Positions 4,885 through 27,571 of a DNA stretch of 64,000 bases are shown here, one piece after another (within the stretch, counting starts at the first letter, position 1; the number at the start of each line of letters is the position of its first letter). Source of the DNA: Alphaproteobacteria bacterium (lineage in GTDB: Bacteria > Pseudomonadota > Alphaproteobacteria > Ferrovibrionales > Ferrovibrionaceae). Position numbers and translations under genes: made by a program. Below the pieces are notes generated by a model. That model did no database searches. It saw nothing but the letters and a program-made list of their open reading frames with translations, and had not been told where the DNA came from. The stretch lies in contig JAFKFH010000004.1 of the NCBI GenBank assembly GCA_017307375.1, positions 682,001 to 746,000 on the forward strand, given 5' to 3'.

Positions 4885-5894
4885 GCCGCCGGCTCCAGCC
4901 GCGGATCGATGATGCCGTAGAGCAGGTCGATCGACAGGTTCAGCACGACGTAGAGCAGCGCCATGGTCAGCACGAAACCCTGGATCGGGGCATAGTCGGC
5001 CGCGATCAGCGCCTCGATCGCGTAGGAGCCGATGCCCGGCCAGGCAAACACCTTCTCGACCAGGACATTGGCGCCCAGCAGGAACGAGAACACCATGCCG
5101 AGGGTGGTGACGACCGGCAGCATCGCGTTCCTGAAGGCGTAGGCGAAGACGACGGTGCCACCCGACAGGCCGCTGGCCCGCGCCGTGCGGATGAAGTCGG
5201 CCGACAGCACTGCGAGCATCGAGGCCCGCGTCATCCGCGCCAGCGGCGCCAGGGTGAAGATCGCCAGCGTCGCCGCCGGCAGGACGAGTTGTCCTGCGGC
5301 GGCGACGAAGGTTTCGGCATCGCCGGCCAGCAGGCTGTCGACGAGATAGAGGCCGGTGCGGTCGGGCGGGCTGGAGAAGAACGCATCGAGCCGCCCGAGC
5401 GGCGCCGGCGACCAGCCGAGCAGGAAATAGAAGACGTAGACCAGTACCAGCCCGGTGAAGAACGTCGGCATCGAGACGCCGAGGGTGACGATCACCCGGC
5501 AGAGGTGATCGACCCAGGAATTGGGCCGGGTCGCGGCGAGAATGCCGAGCGGCAGCGCAATCGCCAGGCTGATGACGAGGCCGAGCAAGGTAAGCTCGAG
5601 CGACGCCGGCAGCCGGCTGGCCAGTTCGACCAGCACCGGCCGGCCGGTCGAAAGCGACTGCCCGAGGTCGCCGCGCAGCAGATCGCCGACATAGCGGACG
5701 AACTGCTCCGGCAGGCTGCGATCGAGGCCGAGCGCCGTGCGGATCTCGGCGATCGCCTTGGCATCGGCGTTGGGGCCGGCGAAATAGGCGGCGGGGTCGC
5801 CGGGCAGGGCCCGGGTCAGCACGAAGGTCACCACGACCACGCCGATCACGCTGGGAATGGCGGCGGCGAGCCTTCGTCCGATCAGGGTCAGCAT
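4881..5894 (-). CDS. Dipeptide-type ABC importer permease (DppB/OppB-like)
   Basis: This 337-residue permease opens with the family hallmark of one helix followed by FVLTRALPGDPAAYFAG. It has multiple membrane segments and the EAA-loop segment DFIRTARASGLSGGTVVFAYAFRN. The end, LLYGIIDPRLEPA, is typical of DppB proteins. It lies 17 bp after the binding-protein gene and is coupled by ATGA to the DppC partner. Nothing in the sequence fixes the cargo. Confidence 0.92.
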   Translation of the reverse strand: MLTLIGRRLAAAIPSVIGVVVVTFVLTRALPGDPAAYFAGPNADAKAIAEIRTALGLDRSLPEQFVRYVGDLLRGDLGQSLSTGRPVLVELASRLPASLELTLLGLVISLAIALPLGILAATRPNSWVDHLCRVIVTLGVSMPTFFTGLVLVYVFYFLLGWSPAPLGRLDAFFSSPPDRTGLYLVDSLLAGDAETFVAAAGQLVLPAATLAIFTLAPLARMTRASMLAVLSADFIRTARASGLSGGTVVFAYAFRNAMLPVVTTLGMVFSFLLGANVLVEKVFAWPGIGSYAIEALIAADYAPIQGFVLTMALLYVVLNLSIDLLYGIIDPRLEPAA

Positions 5895-5911
5895 CGGCGG
5901 CCCCTCCCCGT

Positions 5912-7513
5912 TCAGTTCTTCACCAGCTGGCGGAAATCGAGCTGGCGATGGAACCAGTACTTGTAGCCGGTGATGTTCTTCTGGAAGCCGACGTCCATGA
6001 ACTGCTGATAGAGCGGGACGCGCGGCACTTCCGTCATCGCCATCTGGATGAAGCCCTTCACCGCGCCCTCGTACTTCGCCGTGTCGTCCTCGTAGCGGGC
6101 GGCGTCGATGAACTTGTCCATCGCCGGGTTCTGGTAGCCCATGGTGTTGAAGGTTCCGTTCTGGCTGTGATAGCCCCAGTAGAACCAGTAGTCGGGGAAG
6201 TTGAGCCAGCCGCCGAACGACGCGATGTGGATCGGCAGGTCCTTCTTGGCCAGCGCGCCGCGCCAGTTGGCACCCGGCACCTTGTTGATCGTCGTCTTGA
6301 CCCCTGCCTGGGCCAGCGATTCCTGCAGCAGCACCGCAGCCGGTTCCGAGACGGTGGCATCGCCCAGGTCGATCGATATCGTCGATTCGAAGCCGTTGGG
6401 GAACCCGGCCTCGGCGAGCAGCGCCCGCGCCTTGGCGATATCGGTCTTATAGGGGAAAGGCTGTGGCCAGGCAGCCGTCTTCGGCTCGCCGCTCGGTGCG
6501 CCGAACATCGGCACCCCGCGACCGTAGACGGCGGTCTTCATGATCGCCTCGTAGGGAATCGCATAGGCCAGGGCCTGACGGACCTTGACGTTGTCGAACG
6601 GCGCCTGCTTGACCGCGAAGCCGACATAGAGCAGCGAGTTCTCGACCGGGACGCCGACGATCCGATACTTGCCCGAGGCGGAAATCTCGGCGGCGTCCTT
6701 GGGCGGCAGGTCGATCGAGATGTCGGCGTCGCCTTTTTCCATCAAGGCGCGGCGGTTGCCGGCCGACGGGACTTCGCGCAGGATCACGCGCTTCATCGCC
6801 GGCAGCGGCCCGTTCTTCCATTCGTCGAACCGGGTGTAGACGGTCTCCTGCCCCGGCGTCCATTTCTCCAGCTTGAAGGCGCCGCCCGCGGCGACGTTGT
6901 TCTTCAGCCAGTCGAGCGCCCAGGGATCGGCCGCGGTCGCATGCTTCTTGGCGAGTTCCGAGTTGTAGATCGCCGCGACCGGCACGGCCATGTCGGGCAG
7001 AGTCAGCTTGTCCTTGAGCAGGAACTTGACCTTGAACGTGTAGTCGTCGATCACCTCGAACTGCTCGGGCTTGGTCAGCGACCCCGCGCTCATCTGGAAC
7101 GTCGGGAAGCCGCCGACCGACACCGCCCGGTCGAACGACCACTTCACATCCTTGGCCGTGACGGGACTGCCGTCGTGGAACGTCGTGCCCCGGCGCAGGT
7201 AGAAAGTGACCGACATGCCGTCCGGCGCGAACTCGTAGCGCTCGGCCAGTTCGCCGACGATCTTGGTGTAGTCGTAGGACAGCGTGCCGTCGGCAAGCGT
7301 CTTGGTCCCGAACGACACCAGCCGGTCATGCGTGTTCCACGACGCGACATAGGAACGAAAGCTGGTGCCGACGCCCTGGATATCCAGGTTGTTCGGACCG
7401 CTCTCCACCAGCACCAGCAAGGTATCCTTGCGCCCCTGCGCCGCGGCGGGCATGGCGGTTGCCACCCCAGCCGCCAGCATCGCCGCCGCCACCCACTTGC
7501 CCCCAGCCTGCAT
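5912..7513 (-). CDS. Periplasmic substrate-binding protein, SBP_bac_5 (dipeptide/nickel type)
   Basis: This 533-residue protein has a Sec signal (about 1-26, hydrophobic core then AAAQG) and a family 5 solute-binding fold. Recognisable segments are YEFAPDGMSVTFYLRRGTTF and KDVKWSFDRAVS near the N-terminal domain, and VRQALAYAIPYEAIM in the middle. It delivers cargo to the DppBCDF-like importer downstream. The start has a strong AAGGAGG about 6 bases upstream. The 169-bp gap before it carries a TTGTATGCAA motif, so this gene may have its own GntR-controlled promoter inside the longer run from atzF. Confidence 0.92.
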   Translation of the reverse strand: MQAGGKWVAAAMLAAGVATAMPAAAQGRKDTLLVLVESGPNNLDIQGVGTSFRSYVASWNTHDRLVSFGTKTLADGTLSYDYTKIVGELAERYEFAPDGMSVTFYLRRGTTFHDGSPVTAKDVKWSFDRAVSVGGFPTFQMSAGSLTKPEQFEVIDDYTFKVKFLLKDKLTLPDMAVPVAAIYNSELAKKHATAADPWALDWLKNNVAAGGAFKLEKWTPGQETVYTRFDEWKNGPLPAMKRVILREVPSAGNRRALMEKGDADISIDLPPKDAAEISASGKYRIVGVPVENSLLYVGFAVKQAPFDNVKVRQALAYAIPYEAIMKTAVYGRGVPMFGAPSGEPKTAAWPQPFPYKTDIAKARALLAEAGFPNGFESTISIDLGDATVSEPAAVLLQESLAQAGVKTTINKVPGANWRGALAKKDLPIHIASFGGWLNFPDYWFYWGYHSQNGTFNTMGYQNPAMDKFIDAARYEDDTAKYEGAVKGFIQMAMTEVPRVPLYQQFMDVGFQKNITGYKYWFHRQLDFRQLVKN

Positions 7514-7622
7514 TGTCGCCTCCTTGGCATGACCCCTGTCGGTAAATGGCTACGCAAGGGGCATGCCAACTTGCTGCGATGCGGCAAGTCTTTGAAAAAA
7601 GAAGGTTATTTTTCATGTTACG

Positions 7623-7632
7623 TTGTATGCAA
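7623..7632. promoter_or_regulatory. Candidate GntR operator, TTGTATGCAA
   Basis: The sequence is a near-palindrome, TTG and CAA arms around TATG, extended to GTTG-TATG-CAAC at 7622-7633. It lies 110 bp upstream of the binding-protein start in a short AT-rich stretch. The same 10-mer recurs at 7694 and, with one change, at 10266. Short TTG-type palindromes are plausible operators for FCD-type GntR regulators, and one is encoded next to it. The assignment is inference. Confidence 0.5.
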
Positions 7633-7682
7633 CAATACTGAATGGATGAGAATCAAGTCATCGATGATAAAATTTTAGGCAG

Positions 7683-8360
7683 CTATGTGCTCGTTGTATG
7701 CAATGTGGGTACGGCAGCCACGACCTCGTGGCTGGCATCCGAAACCACCAGTACATGATGCAGCATCGCGCGCTGCGCCTCGGCACCGTCGCCGCGAAGG
7801 ATGGCGCGCACCACCTGGTCATGCTCGTCCCATGACTTCTTGAGGCGGCCGGCAATGCGGAACTGGGCGCGGCGAAACGGCTGGATGCGGGTGCGGATCG
7901 CCTGGGCCGTCTCGGCCATGACGTGATTGTGGGCGCCCTGGTAGATCGCCGAATGGAATTCGAGGTTTATCTGGTCATAGGTTTCGCGGGCGCCGACATG
8001 CATCGCCTCGCCGGCGCGGGCATGGATCGCTTCGAGCGCCTGGCGCTCGCGTCCGGTCATGCGGACCGCAGCCAGCCGCGCGCAGACCGCCTCCATCTCG
8101 GCCATCGCCTCGAAGGCTTCGTCGAGCTCGGGGTTCGACAATTGCCGCACCTCCGCGCCGCGATGGGGCTTGATGTCGACAAGGCCGGTGACGACCAGCA
8201 GTTTCAGGGCCTCGCGCACCGGGGTGCGCGAGACCTGGAAGCGGGCGGCGAGCGTGGTTTCGTCGAGCTTGGCGCCGGGCGGCAGTTCGCCGGCGAGGAT
8301 GGCATCGGCAATCTGCTGCTTCAGCCGCTCCGCTAGGGTTGCTTTCGAGAATCGGGCCAT
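7683..8360 (-). CDS. GntR-family (FadR/FCD subfamily) transcriptional regulator
   Basis: This 225-residue regulator has an N-terminal winged helix (about 8-75) with the signature FQVSRTPVREALKLLVVTGLV and a C-terminal all-helical FCD ligand domain containing INLEFHSAIYQGAHN. FCD regulators bind small carboxylates, often with a metal. It lies 12 bp after atzF and ahead of the importer, so it most likely controls this ureide locus and responds to a pathway intermediate. Candidate operators are at 7623, 7694 (inside its own 3' end) and 10266. It resembles, over its whole length, the GntR at 40465-41142, which heads another dipeptide-type importer operon. Confidence 0.9.
   Translation of the reverse strand: MARFSKATLAERLKQQIADAILAGELPPGAKLDETTLAARFQVSRTPVREALKLLVVTGLVDIKPHRGAEVRQLSNPELDEAFEAMAEMEAVCARLAAVRMTGRERQALEAIHARAGEAMHVGARETYDQINLEFHSAIYQGAHNHVMAETAQAIRTRIQPFRRAQFRIAGRLKKSWDEHDQVVRAILRGDGAEAQRAMLHHVLVVSDASHEVVAAVPTLHTTST
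7694..7703. promoter_or_regulatory. Second candidate GntR operator, TTGTATGCAA
   Basis: This is an exact copy of the 10-mer at 7623, located 71 bases away and inside the last codons of the GntR gene. Paired identical sites about seven helical turns apart would allow looping or cooperative binding upstream of the importer genes. Because it is inside coding sequence, chance conservation cannot be excluded. Confidence 0.4.
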
Positions 8361-8372
8361 GGCGGCCGGACT

Positions 8373-10160
8373 TTAGCGCTTCTCCCGCCAGGCGCGCCAC
8401 CCGCCATACGCCGTAATATCTTCGGCGCCGACGATGCCGATGCCCTCGCAGACGAAGCCCTTCACCCAGGATCCGTCATCGAGTTCGACCGAACCGATCG
8501 CAAGCGGCGGCGGCACCAGTGCCAGAAAGCCGCCGACGGCCTCGGCCGGCACCGACCAGACCTCCAGCGCGATCGGCGCGCCCCCCTCGGCGACACGAAT
8601 CAGGCCTGGGCGCGGGCCCATGGCGTAGAGCCGATAGGTCGGCGCCGTGTGCCGGCTGGCGACCAGTGTTGCTCCCCGGCTGGTGAGTTGATCGTTCAGC
8701 GGCTGCCCCGACAGATGGGCCCCGACCACCGCGATCTGTAGCCCTGCCGGCTCCGCCTCGGCCCAACCGACGGGTGGCAGCGGGGTGCTGGTGCCGCCCA
8801 TCAGCCCGCCGAGATCCGCATGAGCTGCCGCTGCTATGGCGGCAATCCGGGCATCGGCCAGGGCCGGACCGGCCAGGGTGACGCCGAAAGGCAGGCCGTT
8901 CGGCCGGAAGCCGGCCGGATAGGCGATGCCGCTCATGTCCAGCAGATTCATGAAATTGGTGTAGTGGCCGAGATTCGAATTGTACCGGATCGGTTCGGCC
9001 GCGAGATCGGCATGGGTATAGTTGGTCGGCGCCGTCGGCAGCAGCAGGCAGTCGACCTTCGCCATCTCGGCGGCGCAGCGCCGCTTGAGCGCCTCCAGGC
9101 GATAGAGCCCCTTGAACGCCTCGACCGCACTGCGACCGGCCGCCCCGTCATAGATGGCGCGCGTGACCGGGTGCAGGCTGTCGGCGTGATCGCGGAAGAA
9201 ATCCTCGATGGCGGCGACGCGTTCGGCGACCCATGGGCCTTCGTAAAGCAGCAAGGCCGTCTCGCGGAACGGGCCGAAGTCGATCGGCACGGCCGTGCCG
9301 CCGATCCGCTCCAGCCGCGCGACCGCGGCGGCAAACAGCGCCGGCCCATCGGCATTGCCATAGAACTCGAGCGCCTCGGGCGCCGGCACGCCGAAGCGGA
9401 AGCGGCCCGGCCGGACCAGGGCGAGTTCCGGCTCTTCGGACCGGGCATAGATGTCGCCGGCATCGAAGCCCTTCGCGACATCGAGCACGGCCAGCGCATC
9501 GGCGGTGGCGAGGCCGAAGATCGAGACGCAATCCAATGACCTGCAGGCGGGCACCACGCCGGTCGTGGGGATCAGACCGCGTGTCGGCTTGATGCCGACG
9601 AGGTTGTTGAGCATCGCCGGCACCCGCCCCGACCCGGCCGTGTCGGTGCCGAGGCTGAAGGAGACGAGACCCGCGGCGACGGCAACGGCCGAGCCCGAAC
9701 TGGATCCGCCCGAGACATAGGCCGGATCGAAGACGCAGGATGGCGCGCCGTAGGGCGAGCGCACCCCGACGAGGCCGGTGGCGAACTGATCGAGATTGGT
9801 CTTGCCGACCGCCAGCGCGCCGGCTGCCTCCAGCCGCGCGACGACGGTCGCGGAAACCGCCGGGACGTAGGAGAAATCGGGGCAGGCGGCGGTCGTCGGC
9901 CAGCCCGCGACATCGATGTTGTCCTTGATCGCGAAGGGTATGCCGTAGAGCGGCAGATCGTCCGCGTTGCCGCGCGCCATCAACGCTTCGGCCCGCGCGA
10001 TCGCCTCGGCCTCGTCGGGCAGGTGCAGCCAGACCTTGTCGTCGCCGCGGGCGGCAATGCGCGCGCGCACCGCGCGGATCACGTCGACCGGCGTCGCGGC
10101 GCCGCTGCGATAGAGTGCGCGCAGGCTCGTGATGTCGAGGCTGTCGATCGGCGTGGACAT
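8373..10160 (-). CDS. atzF: Allophanate hydrolase
   Basis: This 595-residue enzyme has the two-domain layout of AtzF. The amidase-signature domain (about 1-450) carries the triad K79 (FAIKDNID), S153 (GGSSSGSA) and S177 (TDTAGSGRVP). A C-terminal domain (about 475-595) carries the conserved YRLYAMGPRPGL and the ending EDITAYGGWRAWR. AtzF hydrolyses allophanate to ammonia and N-carboxycarbamate, which decays to CO2 and ammonia. It is stand-alone, not fused to urea carboxylase, which fits s-triazine/biuret breakdown better than urea amidolyase. It is the first gene of the minus-strand arm and faces the divergent promoter region 10161-10421. Confidence 0.95.
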   Translation of the reverse strand: MSTPIDSLDITSLRALYRSGAATPVDVIRAVRARIAARGDDKVWLHLPDEAEAIARAEALMARGNADDLPLYGIPFAIKDNIDVAGWPTTAACPDFSYVPAVSATVVARLEAAGALAVGKTNLDQFATGLVGVRSPYGAPSCVFDPAYVSGGSSSGSAVAVAAGLVSFSLGTDTAGSGRVPAMLNNLVGIKPTRGLIPTTGVVPACRSLDCVSIFGLATADALAVLDVAKGFDAGDIYARSEEPELALVRPGRFRFGVPAPEALEFYGNADGPALFAAAVARLERIGGTAVPIDFGPFRETALLLYEGPWVAERVAAIEDFFRDHADSLHPVTRAIYDGAAGRSAVEAFKGLYRLEALKRRCAAEMAKVDCLLLPTAPTNYTHADLAAEPIRYNSNLGHYTNFMNLLDMSGIAYPAGFRPNGLPFGVTLAGPALADARIAAIAAAAHADLGGLMGGTSTPLPPVGWAEAEPAGLQIAVVGAHLSGQPLNDQLTSRGATLVASRHTAPTYRLYAMGPRPGLIRVAEGGAPIALEVWSVPAEAVGGFLALVPPPLAIGSVELDDGSWVKGFVCEGIGIVGAEDITAYGGWRAWREKR

Positions 10161-10260
10161 GTCGGTACTCCTTCAGTCGACGATTTTACCCTGACCATTG
10201 CAGGTTTGGTGCCATCACACGGTGGCAGGCGGCAGGCCGCGTCTGCTCAGTCCCCGGGCG

Positions 10261-10275
10261 ATGTATTGCATACAT
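10261..10275. promoter_or_regulatory. Candidate GntR operator in the divergent atzF / BMP-importer promoter region
   Basis: ATGTAT-TGC-ATACAT forms a perfect 6-bp inverted repeat. Read on the minus strand it contains ATGTATGCAA, one base different from the TTGTATGCAA copies at 7623 and 7694. It sits 100 bp upstream of atzF and 147 bp upstream of the BMP binding protein, so one bound regulator could control both arms. The rest of the 261-bp gap holds AT-rich stretches but no gene. Confidence 0.55.
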
Positions 10276-10421
10276 TGCGCACCATATCGCCTATTTTTTC
10301 ATCAAATCTGGTATTCGAACGATGCCCGGTGGCTGGATTTCGGCGGTTCGGCGTCTGGCATCGAACCTGCATCGTCATGCTGCAGCCGCGAAAGGCTCAC
10401 GTCCAGACGAGGGGAGATGCC

Positions 10422-11540
10422 ATGACCAACTTCACCACGCCGTCCCGCCGGTCCCTGTTGCGCGGCGCTGCCGCCGGCGGCCTGCTTGCCGCCACCGGCC
10501 TGCCGATCGGCCGCGCCTTCGCCGCCGACCTCGTCGTCGGCTTCATCTATGTCGGGCCGCGCGACGACTACGGCTACAACCAGGCCCAGGCCGAGGGCGC
10601 CGCGGCGCTGAAGAAGCTGGCGGGCGTCAAGGTCGTCGAAGAGGAGAAAGTGCCGGAGACCATCGCCGTCGAGAAGACGATGGAGAGCATGATCAACCTC
10701 GACGGCGCCAAGCTGCTGTTCCCAACCTCGTTCGGCTACTACAACCCGCATATGCTGAAGCTGGCGAAGAAGTATCCCGCCGTGCGCTTCGAACATTGCG
10801 GCGGCCTGTGGACCGAGGGCGCGCCCAAGAACGCGGGCAGCTATTTCGGCTACATCGACGAAGCCCAGTATCTCGCCGGCATCGTCGCCGGCCATACCTC
10901 GAAGACCGGCAAGCTCGGCTTCATCGCCGCCAAGCCGATCCCGCAGGTCCTGCGCAACATCAATGCCTTCACCCTGGGCGCGCGGTCGGTCAATCCGAAC
11001 GCGACGACGCAGGTGATCTTCACCGGCGACTGGTCGCTGCCGGTCAAGGAAGCCGAGGCGTCGAACAGCCTGATCGACCAGGGCGTCGACGTCCTCACCT
11101 GCCACGTCGACAGCCCGAAGGTGGTGATGGAGACGGCCGAGCGCCGCGGCGTCTTCTGCTCGGGCTACCACGTCAACCAGGCGCCGCTGGCGCCCAAGGG
11201 ATACCTCACCGGCGCCGAATGGGCCTGGTCGGGACTGTTCACGTCGATGGTCGACGCGGTCAAGACCGGCAAGCCGATCCCGAACCTCGTCCGCGGCGGC
11301 CTGAAGGAAGGCCTGGTCAAGACCTCCGCCTACGGTCCTGCGGTGGGCGAGGCGGCGCGCAAGCAGGCCGACGCGGTCAAGGCGCGTTTCCTCGATTCCG
11401 GCTTCGTCATCTTCAAGGGCCCGCTGAAGGACAACAAGGGCGCGGTGGTCATCCCGGCCGGCCAGGAGCAGGGCCAGACCGACCTGCGGCTGGAAAGCAT
11501 GAACTACCTGGTCGAAGGCGTCCTGGGCGCCCTGGCCTGA
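10422..11540 (+). CDS. BMP-family (PnrA-like) ABC importer substrate-binding protein, Tat-exported
   Basis: This 372-residue protein has a twin-arginine signal (SRRSLLRGAAAGG, about 7-33) and a basic-membrane-protein domain with FIYVGPRDDYGYNQAQAEGA near its start. BMP proteins bind nucleosides and other small heterocycles or ureides for CUT2-like importers. GGGGAG precedes the ATG; the longer upstream frame lacks such support. Two permeases and a double-domain ATPase follow, interleaved with amidohydrolases. The cargo is therefore likely a nitrogen-rich amide or ureide, not a classical nucleoside. Confidence 0.92.
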   Translation: MTNFTTPSRRSLLRGAAAGGLLAATGLPIGRAFAADLVVGFIYVGPRDDYGYNQAQAEGAAALKKLAGVKVVEEEKVPETIAVEKTMESMINLDGAKLLFPTSFGYYNPHMLKLAKKYPAVRFEHCGGLWTEGAPKNAGSYFGYIDEAQYLAGIVAGHTSKTGKLGFIAAKPIPQVLRNINAFTLGARSVNPNATTQVIFTGDWSLPVKEAEASNSLIDQGVDVLTCHVDSPKVVMETAERRGVFCSGYHVNQAPLAPKGYLTGAEWAWSGLFTSMVDAVKTGKPIPNLVRGGLKEGLVKTSAYGPAVGEAARKQADAVKARFLDSGFVIFKGPLKDNKGAVVIPAGQEQGQTDLRLESMNYLVEGVLGALA

Positions 11541-25079: not shown

Positions 25080-25184
25080 CGGAAGAAGCCGCGGGCACGC
25101 TCGGCATCGAGATATGCGTTTATTTTTTTGTCGCCTTCTTTATATGCTACTATACATAGATAAATATATAGAAAGAGCAATGTA

Positions 25185-26780
25185 ATGGCCGACTTAAGTA
25201 TTCGCGAAATTCTGGAGCAGGTGGCGCGTGGTCAAATTAGGATACCAGCGTTTCAGCGTGGTTTTGTATGGGAGCCCGAGCGTGTCGCCTACTTAATGGA
25301 TAGTATTTACAAGAGATTTCCATTTGGGTCCGTGTTGTTTTGGCGGACAAGAGAAAAACTGAAATTTGATAAAAAGCTTGGACCTTTCGAACTTCCCGAA
25401 CCGAAGGCAGATTATCCTATTGATTATGTATTAGATGGTCAGCAGCGAATCACGTCGATTTTCGGTGTTTTTCAGTCAGAACTACCTGCACCAGGTACCG
25501 ACGACAATTGGTTGCCAATCTATTTTGATTTGATAGCAGAGCAGACTGCCCAAGATAGTCAATTTATTGCGTTATCGCCCGATAAGGTCGATCCAGAACG
25601 ACATTTTCCTCTCTCCACACTGTTTAATACGGTGGCTTACAGAAAAGCCAATGAAGGGCGACCTGATAGTACAATAGAAAAAATTGATAAGATGCAGGAG
25701 ATATTTAAAGAAGTTAAGATTCCGACCCAAACATCAACAACCGAAGATAAGGCAACGGTTGCGATAATTTTTGAAAGGGTCAATAGACAGGGCGTCGAAC
25801 TAGATACATTACAGTTGCTGTCCGCGTGGACTTGGAGTGAAGAATTTCAGTTGCAAGATCAATTCGCTGAACTAGCAGAAGAACTTACACCATTTGGATT
25901 TGAGGAAATTGGAGGAGATACAAATCTTCTTCTAAGGTGTTGCTCTGCTGTGCTTAAAGGCGATGCATCCCCTCAAGCGCTTATGAGTATAAATGGTGCA
26001 GACGTAAGAAAGGAGTTCGATAGAGTAACAAATGGTGTGAAATACGCTGTTGATTATTTAAGGAAAAATTTCCTTGCTGAAAAGTTGAATAATTTGCCTT
26101 TTTCGACTTTATTAGTTCCTTTATCTGTATTCTTTGCGGTGCCCGGCAAAAAAGAGGCTAGATATAGCGACGATCAGCGCAAGAAAATAAATAAATGGTT
26201 CTGGAGAACATCGTTCTCTAAGAGATACAGTTCCGCCGTAATTAGAAACTTAAATGTTGATATTGAGCAGATGAAGAATCTTCGCACCTACGGCGACAGC
26301 CATTTGGGAGATTTTTCAACTGATTTTGGGCCAGAATTCTTTAAAAATAATACATTTGGTCTAAACAATGTCAACACAAAGACTTTTGTATTACTTCTTG
26401 CTACAAGAACACCCCGGTCGTTCATATCAGGCCAGCCCGTTGATCTAGCAAAAACATTGAAAGAATCAAATAGAACTGAATTTCATCACCTCATGCCTCG
26501 GGCATTTCTGAAAAATAAAAATACGCAATACGATGAAAATGTTCTTGCGAACTTTTCATTCCTTTCTCGGGCGGACAACAGAGAAATTGGAGGGGCGCCT
26601 CCATCTGCATACAAATCAAAGATGCCAGAAGATTTGACTTCTATACTAGCAGGTGCGGCGGCTCCGATGTCACTATTTGACGATGATTTTAATAAGTTCG
26701 TTGAAGAGAGATCAGACCTCCTTGCCAAAATAGCTTGGGATTTGTGTGAGATAGATTTTCGGGCGGATTTCCCTGCTTAG
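25185..26780 (+). CDS. DUF262 + HNH/DUF1524-like protein, AT-rich, possible anti-phage nuclease
   Basis: This 531-residue protein has an N-terminal DUF262 (ParB/Srx-like) domain with IPAFQRGFVWEPERV (20-34) and the hallmark DGQQR at 84-88. A C-terminal HNH-like block shows H434-H435 (EFHHLMPRAF), N456 and N465. This layout matches the GmrS+GmrD or SspE type of nucleotide-dependent restriction and phage-defence nucleases, here in one chain. The gene is strikingly AT-rich with unusual codon use compared with every neighbour, a sign of recent transfer. It stands alone, with an AT-rich promoter region (about 25120-25170). The substrate and target are unknown. Confidence 0.85.
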   Translation: MADLSIREILEQVARGQIRIPAFQRGFVWEPERVAYLMDSIYKRFPFGSVLFWRTREKLKFDKKLGPFELPEPKADYPIDYVLDGQQRITSIFGVFQSELPAPGTDDNWLPIYFDLIAEQTAQDSQFIALSPDKVDPERHFPLSTLFNTVAYRKANEGRPDSTIEKIDKMQEIFKEVKIPTQTSTTEDKATVAIIFERVNRQGVELDTLQLLSAWTWSEEFQLQDQFAELAEELTPFGFEEIGGDTNLLLRCCSAVLKGDASPQALMSINGADVRKEFDRVTNGVKYAVDYLRKNFLAEKLNNLPFSTLLVPLSVFFAVPGKKEARYSDDQRKKINKWFWRTSFSKRYSSAVIRNLNVDIEQMKNLRTYGDSHLGDFSTDFGPEFFKNNTFGLNNVNTKTFVLLLATRTPRSFISGQPVDLAKTLKESNRTEFHHLMPRAFLKNKNTQYDENVLANFSFLSRADNREIGGAPPSAYKSKMPEDLTSILAGAAAPMSLFDDDFNKFVEERSDLLAKIAWDLCEIDFRADFPA

Positions 26781-26791
26781 AGAAAAGGCAG

Positions 26792-27571
26792 CTAGTCTAG
26801 CGTCGCAACGAAGAACAGCCGCGGGAACGGGAGCAGCACGGTGCCGTCGGCCATCGTCGGATAGGCACCGGCGAGTGCTGCTTCGTACTGCGCGAGATAG
26901 CCGGTCCGCTCGTCCTCGTCGAGCGGATCGAGGAACGGCCGCAACCCGGTTCCCTTGAACCATTCGACGACCGCCGCCGGGCCGCCGGCCAGCGGATGAT
27001 GATAGACGGTCCGCCAGACGTCGACCTGCACCCCCGCCCCGCGCACAACGCGGAAATACCAGTCGGCGTCATGCCGGCTGGCGCGCGCCTGGGCGGCATC
27101 GACGAGCTTGCCCGCCCATGGGCCATCGGCTGCCACCTTGCGCATCAGGCGATGGGCCGGTTCGTCGAGATTGTCGGGCATCTGCACCGCCAGGCTGCCG
27201 CCAGGGGCCAGGCGCGCCAGCAGGGCCGGCAGCAGCCGGGCGTGGTCCGGAACCCATTGCAGCGCGGCGTTGGCCAGGATCACGTCGAACCGTTCCGACC
27301 CGGTCCAGTCGGCGATGTCGGCGACGGCGAACCGGGCCGCCGGCAGGCGCCTGCGCGCCGCCTCGATCATCGCCGGCGAACTGTCCATGCCGAACAAGGC
27401 GGCCTCAGGGTAGCGCCGTCCCAGCAATTCGGTCGAATTGCCGGGGCCGCAACCGATGTCGGCCGCCTGCGCCACGGCCGTGTTGGGGATCTGGGCGAGC
27501 AGATCGCGGATCGGCCGGTTCCGCTCGTCCTCGAACTTGGTGTACTGGGTCGGCGACCAGGTCATCGGCAT
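26792..27571 (-). CDS. tam: Trans-aconitate 2-methyltransferase
   Basis: This 259-residue SAM-dependent methyltransferase has the SAM motif ADIGCGPGNSTELL (about 37-50). Tam-specific features include the N-terminus TWSPTQYTKFEDERNRP, NAALQWVPDH and the ending FPRLFFVATLD. Tam methylates trans-aconitate, which forms from cis-aconitate and inhibits aconitase. It is divergent from a LysR regulator that may control it; an LTTR-like box lies in the 91-bp gap. Confidence 0.92.
   Translation of the reverse strand: MPMTWSPTQYTKFEDERNRPIRDLLAQIPNTAVAQAADIGCGPGNSTELLGRRYPEAALFGMDSSPAMIEAARRRLPAARFAVADIADWTGSERFDVILANAALQWVPDHARLLPALLARLAPGGSLAVQMPDNLDEPAHRLMRKVAADGPWAGKLVDAAQARASRHDADWYFRVVRGAGVQVDVWRTVYHHPLAGGPAAVVEWFKGTGLRPFLDPLDEDERTGYLAQYEAALAGAYPTMADGTVLLPFPRLFFVATLD

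Follow-up and report, generated by a model that had tools for sequence, protein, structure and literature searches.

How a compositionally foreign gene came to lie among ordinary neighbours, and what its product does, are the questions raised by an ORF at positions 25185-26780 of a 64,000-nucleotide stretch of alphaproteobacterial DNA (the window). The ORF, here called the window gene, is intact, begins with ATG and encodes a protein of 531 amino acids.

A lone gene in an AT-rich segment

The GC content of the ORF is 0.413, compared with 0.682 +/- 0.020 (minimum 0.625) in the other 1.6-kb windows of the 64 kb (z = -13.4), and amounts to 0.50/0.38/0.36 at codon positions 1-3. The third-position value of 0.36 lies far below the 0.85-0.89 of seven flanking genes, from which the ORF also departs in codon usage (distance 8.8 versus 1.9-3.1 for the flanking genes). 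These values bear out the sharp compositional break with both flanks reported by the first-pass annotation. Segmentation on GC delimits an AT-rich segment of about 1.7 kb that contains one gene only (Table 1).

The gene order is solute-binding protein, UxaC (PF02614, 2.8e-72) and the window gene, followed on the other strand by genes for a SAM methyltransferase (previously labelled tam), LysR, EamA and a further LysR. The neighbours are ordinary chromosomal genes, and the solitary position between uxaC and the methyltransferase gene is as first described. The uxaC gene is absent from 17 of 17 family relatives, and the 64-kb window contains no tRNA gene. Two other elements of the initial description hold less well. 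A promoter of its own had been ascribed to the gene, but a promoter scan found no sigma-70-like consensus in the AT-rich leader upstream of it. Repeats had been said to be absent, but the AT-rich segment is flanked by two imperfect copies of a direct repeat, 18-20 nt long (GAAGA--AGCCGCGGG[C/A]ACG). Against random pairs from the window its score has an empirical p of 0.002, 0.009 and 0.04 for flanks of 40, 60 and 100 bases, respectively; because p changes with the flank length chosen, the repeat is suggestive only, a weak sign of a possible target duplication.

Table 1. Features of the AT-rich segment and of the protein that it encodes (window positions)
Feature	Position	Strand	Basis or remark
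Imperfect direct repeat, left copy	25082..25099	+	possible target duplication, weak
AT-rich acquired segment	25106..26799		maximum-scoring segmentation on GC
531-aa GmrSD/BrxU-like protein (DUF262 + HNH)	25185..26780	+	Pfam, PADLOC, profile and fold matches
GmrSD_N / DUF262 domain, residues 6-215	25200..25829	+	ParB/Srx-like NTPase fold; PF03235; ParB/Noc fold match
YLMDS, residues 36-40	25290..25304	+	counterpart of BrxU RLFDS
DGQQR, residues 84-88	25434..25448	+	invariant in 20 relatives; aligns with BrxU DGQQR
Predicted HNH (beta-beta-alpha metal) nuclease domain, ~residues 394-500	26364..26684	+	Cas9 HNH fold match; predicted strands and helix
H434-H435	26484..26489	+	invariant in 20 relatives; counterpart of BrxU D474-H475 (catalytic DHIYP)
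N456 ... N465, HNH asparagines	26550..26579	+	invariant in 20 relatives; BrxU alignment
Imperfect direct repeat, right copy	26810..26829	+	inside 3' end of methyltransferase gene

A two-domain protein related to BrxU

The N-terminal part of the protein matches PF03235 (GmrSD_N) at 1.7e-30 (107 bits, cut-off 33.2). PF07510 (GmrSD_C / DUF1524) finds no match in the 531-aa protein; BrxU itself reaches only 17 bits with this model, whose cut-off is 23. Structure prediction and fold comparison, both suggested by the first-pass annotation, gave an AlphaFold model (from 16 sequences, with plasmid-record sequences left out) of mean pLDDT 85.8. Foldseek placed BrxU first (8e-14), followed by DndI, and VIA-align gave Z scores of 17.5 for BrxU over both domains, 8-9.6 for SspE and 9.1 for DndI. 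The BrxU superposition has a large overall rmsd (17-19 A). This would follow if the domains were turned relative to each other, and only the domain-level match is therefore secure. Single-domain matches are to ParB/Noc on the N domain (Z 5.3-5.7) and to the Cas9 HNH domain on residues 394-504 (Z 5-6), where the model contains beta-beta-alpha elements (strands 433-435 and 457-459, helix 462-468). Because its fold matches the HNH domains of BrxU and Cas9, the C-terminal domain is read from the model as an HNH nuclease despite the absent PF07510 match, in keeping with the DUF262-HNH architecture first proposed. Thus, the N-terminal DUF262, the DGQQR motif and the C-terminal HNH/His-Me finger that mark the GmrSD family in its broad sense (PMC12373910) are all present.

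The best PADLOC model is PDC-M55C (4.8e-59 over the full length), followed by HEC-05 (8e-28), the model of the BrxU family, and by a weak SspE match; the first two models match all 20 relatives. A profile of these relatives matched BrxU (7p9k) at 4e-27 across both domains, and SspE weakly, while profile comparison with pEFER BrxU spans residues 3-520 (probability 99.7). The suggested kinship with GmrSD and SspE therefore stands for GmrSD/BrxU, whereas SspE is more distant. Since BrxU prefers HEC-05 (7e-234) over PDC-M55C (2e-17) and the window protein shows the reverse preference, the latter is a sister branch of BrxU and not a BrxU orthologue.

The same comparisons bear on whether the protein is an SspE/DndI-like effector, in which DUF262 would sense phosphorothioate marks placed by host Ssp or Dnd systems and HNH would nick unmarked phage DNA. 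The weak SspE sequence match and the SspE and DndI folds are compatible with such a role, but BrxU is far closer by both fold and profile. No Ssp or Dnd genes lie beside the window gene, whose close relatives are mostly solitary, and a search of the host genome for DndC found no match, which speaks against a DndI role and leaves an Ssp role untouched. An SspE/DndI-like function is thus very unlikely.

Residues essential in BrxU are largely retained. The DGQQR and H-H...N...N blocks are intact and had been numbered correctly, and positions invariant in 20 relatives include D39-S40, D84-G-Q-Q-R88, H434-H435, P438, N456, N465, P473 and Y476. In BrxU, mutations at S42, Q101, R102, D474 and H475 abolish phage resistance and DNA cleavage, while D474A and H475A retain NTP hydrolysis (PMC8565348). 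In the profile alignment S42, Q101, R102 and H475 are conserved as S40, Q87, R88 and H435, and the sole change among these positions is D474 to H434, at the first nuclease position. A histidine at this place, where GmrSD proteins have Asp or Glu, argues against nuclease activity, given that BrxU D474A is dead. However, the H-H form is fixed across the whole branch, and on this pattern of conservation it is probably functional.

Distribution and mobility of the relatives

Relatives with 42-68% identity have a scattered distribution that takes in alpha-, beta- and gammaproteobacteria as well as plasmids and prophages. The closest (54-68%) occur in Microvirga, Methylocaldum, a gammaproteobacterial MAG, Granulosicoccus, Massilia and an Agrobacterium plasmid; further plasmid copies are found in Rhizobium (53%) and Paraburkholderia (49%), and viral contigs carry copies of 42-50%. 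They are AT-rich relative to nearly all their surroundings, and most of them lie at variable sites. A close copy occurs in only one of 385 genomes of the class, the window's own, and the 17 family relatives yield a single distant match of 30%. The foreign composition, the patchy distribution and the plasmid and prophage relatives support the horizontal origin that had been proposed, in which the AT-rich segment was acquired as a lone gene.

Comparison of related replicons reveals the gene as an insertion at two sites. Agrobacterium pAtA6 carries it together with an MgtC gene in 3.1 kb (locus L020, 7818-10922). The corresponding place spans about 70 bp in pAtCFBP5877a and contains other cargo in pAtAF1_95, and is hence filled, empty or differently loaded. 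The cargo of pAtAF1_95 that replaces the DUF262-MgtC pair (L057, 3818-6630) encodes two proteins of 587 and 296 aa, which matched no Pfam or PADLOC family. In Microvirga the flanks of the gene are matched in 40 other genomes, and none of the matches listed covers the gene. In one of these genomes homology ends at position 5862 of locus L007 and restarts at 7655, which makes the insert, with its one gene, no longer than 1.8 kb, the same size as the AT-rich segment of the window. Thus, the gene is absent from related replicons at both the Agrobacterium and the Microvirga site. Just 3' of the gene in M. guangxiensis lies a repeated element (L007, 7655-7922), which has several copies in Microvirga genomes.

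On viral contigs one relative lies between a P2-like replication gene A (gpA) and an integrase gene (L028) and another just after a portal gene (L024), while a plasmid copy (L021) sits amid an ISP restriction-modification gene, TcmP genes and a TniB/TniQ transposition module. Defence genes are commonly found in P2-like prophage intervals of the first kind and in plasmid islands such as the last. Most close relatives are solitary, on unrelated backbones and without a recurrent neighbour; a recurrent downstream partner was considered and rejected, as the next genes differ (DUF5677 in L021, HNH_5 in L022 and an unknown gene in L010). In the gammaproteobacterial MAG an attC-like hairpin (TAACAAGTTGCTGCACTCGG...GGCGTTA; L009, 7569-7650) directly follows the stop codon of the relative, which may be an integron cassette. 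The idea was dropped for the window gene: the core sites in L009 depart from the canonical form, and no attC-like structure is present in the window.

Two viral contigs carry frameshifted copies (L027, 5001-6543; L037, 1063-1624), and the gene therefore also decays in prophages. Such copies would fit a passenger without defensive function, whether a mobile gene in decay or an enzyme of DNA metabolism that belongs to a mobile element. However, the window copy is intact, it differs from its closest relatives by a dN of about 0.27 with dS saturated, and the catalytic residues are invariant in the 20 relatives. A passenger is quite unlikely.

Predicted function and known systems

The window gene is best explained as encoding a single-chain, NTP-gated restriction enzyme of Type IV (modification-dependent) that belongs to the GmrSD/BrxU family and was acquired as a lone gene (probability about 0.72); its anti-phage role is a prediction. 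By analogy with BrxU, the DUF262 domain would bind and hydrolyse NTP on meeting modified DNA, and, as in BrxU, GmrSD and SspE, hydrolysis would position or license the HNH domain to cut incoming phage DNA.

The host genome contains a second AT-rich island (L052, G000:C12:287000-301000, positions 5620-10652), with GC of 0.36-0.49 in surroundings of about 0.70. It encodes a RiboL-PSP-HEPN protein, a DUF262-only protein resembling NsnA/PD-T4-2, a C5-cytosine methyltransferase, a Bse634I/Cfr10I-like restriction enzyme and Vsr, and constitutes a restriction-modification cassette with a HEPN and DUF262 pair. Because of this methyltransferase, host DNA is probably 5mC-methylated at some sites.

The DUF262-only protein could be the distant partner of a multi-gene system in which the window protein is one component, either of PDC-M55 or of a GmrS + GmrSD pair like TgvAB. 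Such a system would account for PDC-M55C, one gene of a multi-gene candidate, being the best PADLOC model, and both TgvAB and GmrS1/GmrSD2 require two proteins (PMC11411939, PMC12373910). However, the DUF262-only protein belongs to its own cassette and resembles NsnA, and the majority of the window gene's close relatives occur singly on varied backbones. Neither PDC-M55 partner gene, A or B, is adjacent to the window gene. M55A has host matches on other contigs and was discarded as a partner, since its model also matches 7 of 14 control genomes; M55B had no match in the host genome, and its control search likewise matched nowhere. The name PDC-M55 was not found in the literature searched. Dependence on a partner encoded elsewhere is accordingly unlikely.

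The window protein must at least spare the sparser cytosine-methylation pattern of its host, as expected from the host's own cytosine-5 methyltransferase, which is a simple constraint on specificity. BrxU cuts DNA fully substituted with 5mC, 5hmC or glc-5hmC (PMC8565348). The predicted target is probably a heavier or different modification than the cytosine methylation of the host. A bolder proposal, which we consider doubtful, is that the HH-type branch (PDC-M55C-like, 20 relatives) constitutes its own Type IV specificity class, recognizing a modification other than the cytosine marks that BrxU and GmrSD cut, and spreads as a 1.7-kb gene alone, lacking its own recombinase.

Single-gene defences of this type, initially called poorly described, are in fact well described: Eco94GmrSD, BrxU/HEC-05 and 12 single-gene groups are known (PMC12373910). 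The GmrSD family combines ParB_n with HNH or DUF1524. Its members from Enterobacteria were divided in 2025 into 12 single-gene and 3 two-gene groups and representatives were tested; five systems, in addition to three known before, acted against T-even phages (PMC12373910). What is new is a distinct HH-type branch of this family, a defined and widely scattered single-chain GmrSD-type branch outside Enterobacteria, the group in which nearly all tests have been carried out. Should the enzyme prove active, its target would be a lead to DNA modifications in phages of other proteobacteria.

The nearest known system is BrxU (HEC-05) of Escherichia fergusonii pEFER (PDB 7P9K/7P9M), which has the same DUF262 + HNH order and a similar length. 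The two proteins share a full-length profile and fold match, DGQQR, an RLFDS-like motif, the second catalytic His, the HNH Asn residues and the following P-x-x-Y. They differ in that their 36% identity extends over the first 100 residues only, in that DHIYP of BrxU corresponds to HHLMP, and in that the window gene is not embedded in BREX. Gene C of the PADLOC candidate PDC-M55 matches the window protein over its full length, as it does 20 of 20 relatives, but the solitary window gene does not fit the multi-gene definition. Single-chain GmrSD proteins (Eco94GmrSD and the 12 single-gene groups of PMC12373910) share the DUF262-HNH fusion, DGQQR and the His-Me finger nuclease, but have E/D-H in place of H-H and a third GmrD motif, NxxFxxKK, that is absent from the window protein, which has GGxPPSxY. 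TgvAB and GmrS1-GmrSD2 have a GmrSD-type nuclease subunit in common with it but need a second DUF262 protein, whereas the window gene is solitary. SspE and DndI have the overall DUF262 + HNH fold in common with the window protein; SspE is longer and its match weaker, and the host lacks a DndC match.
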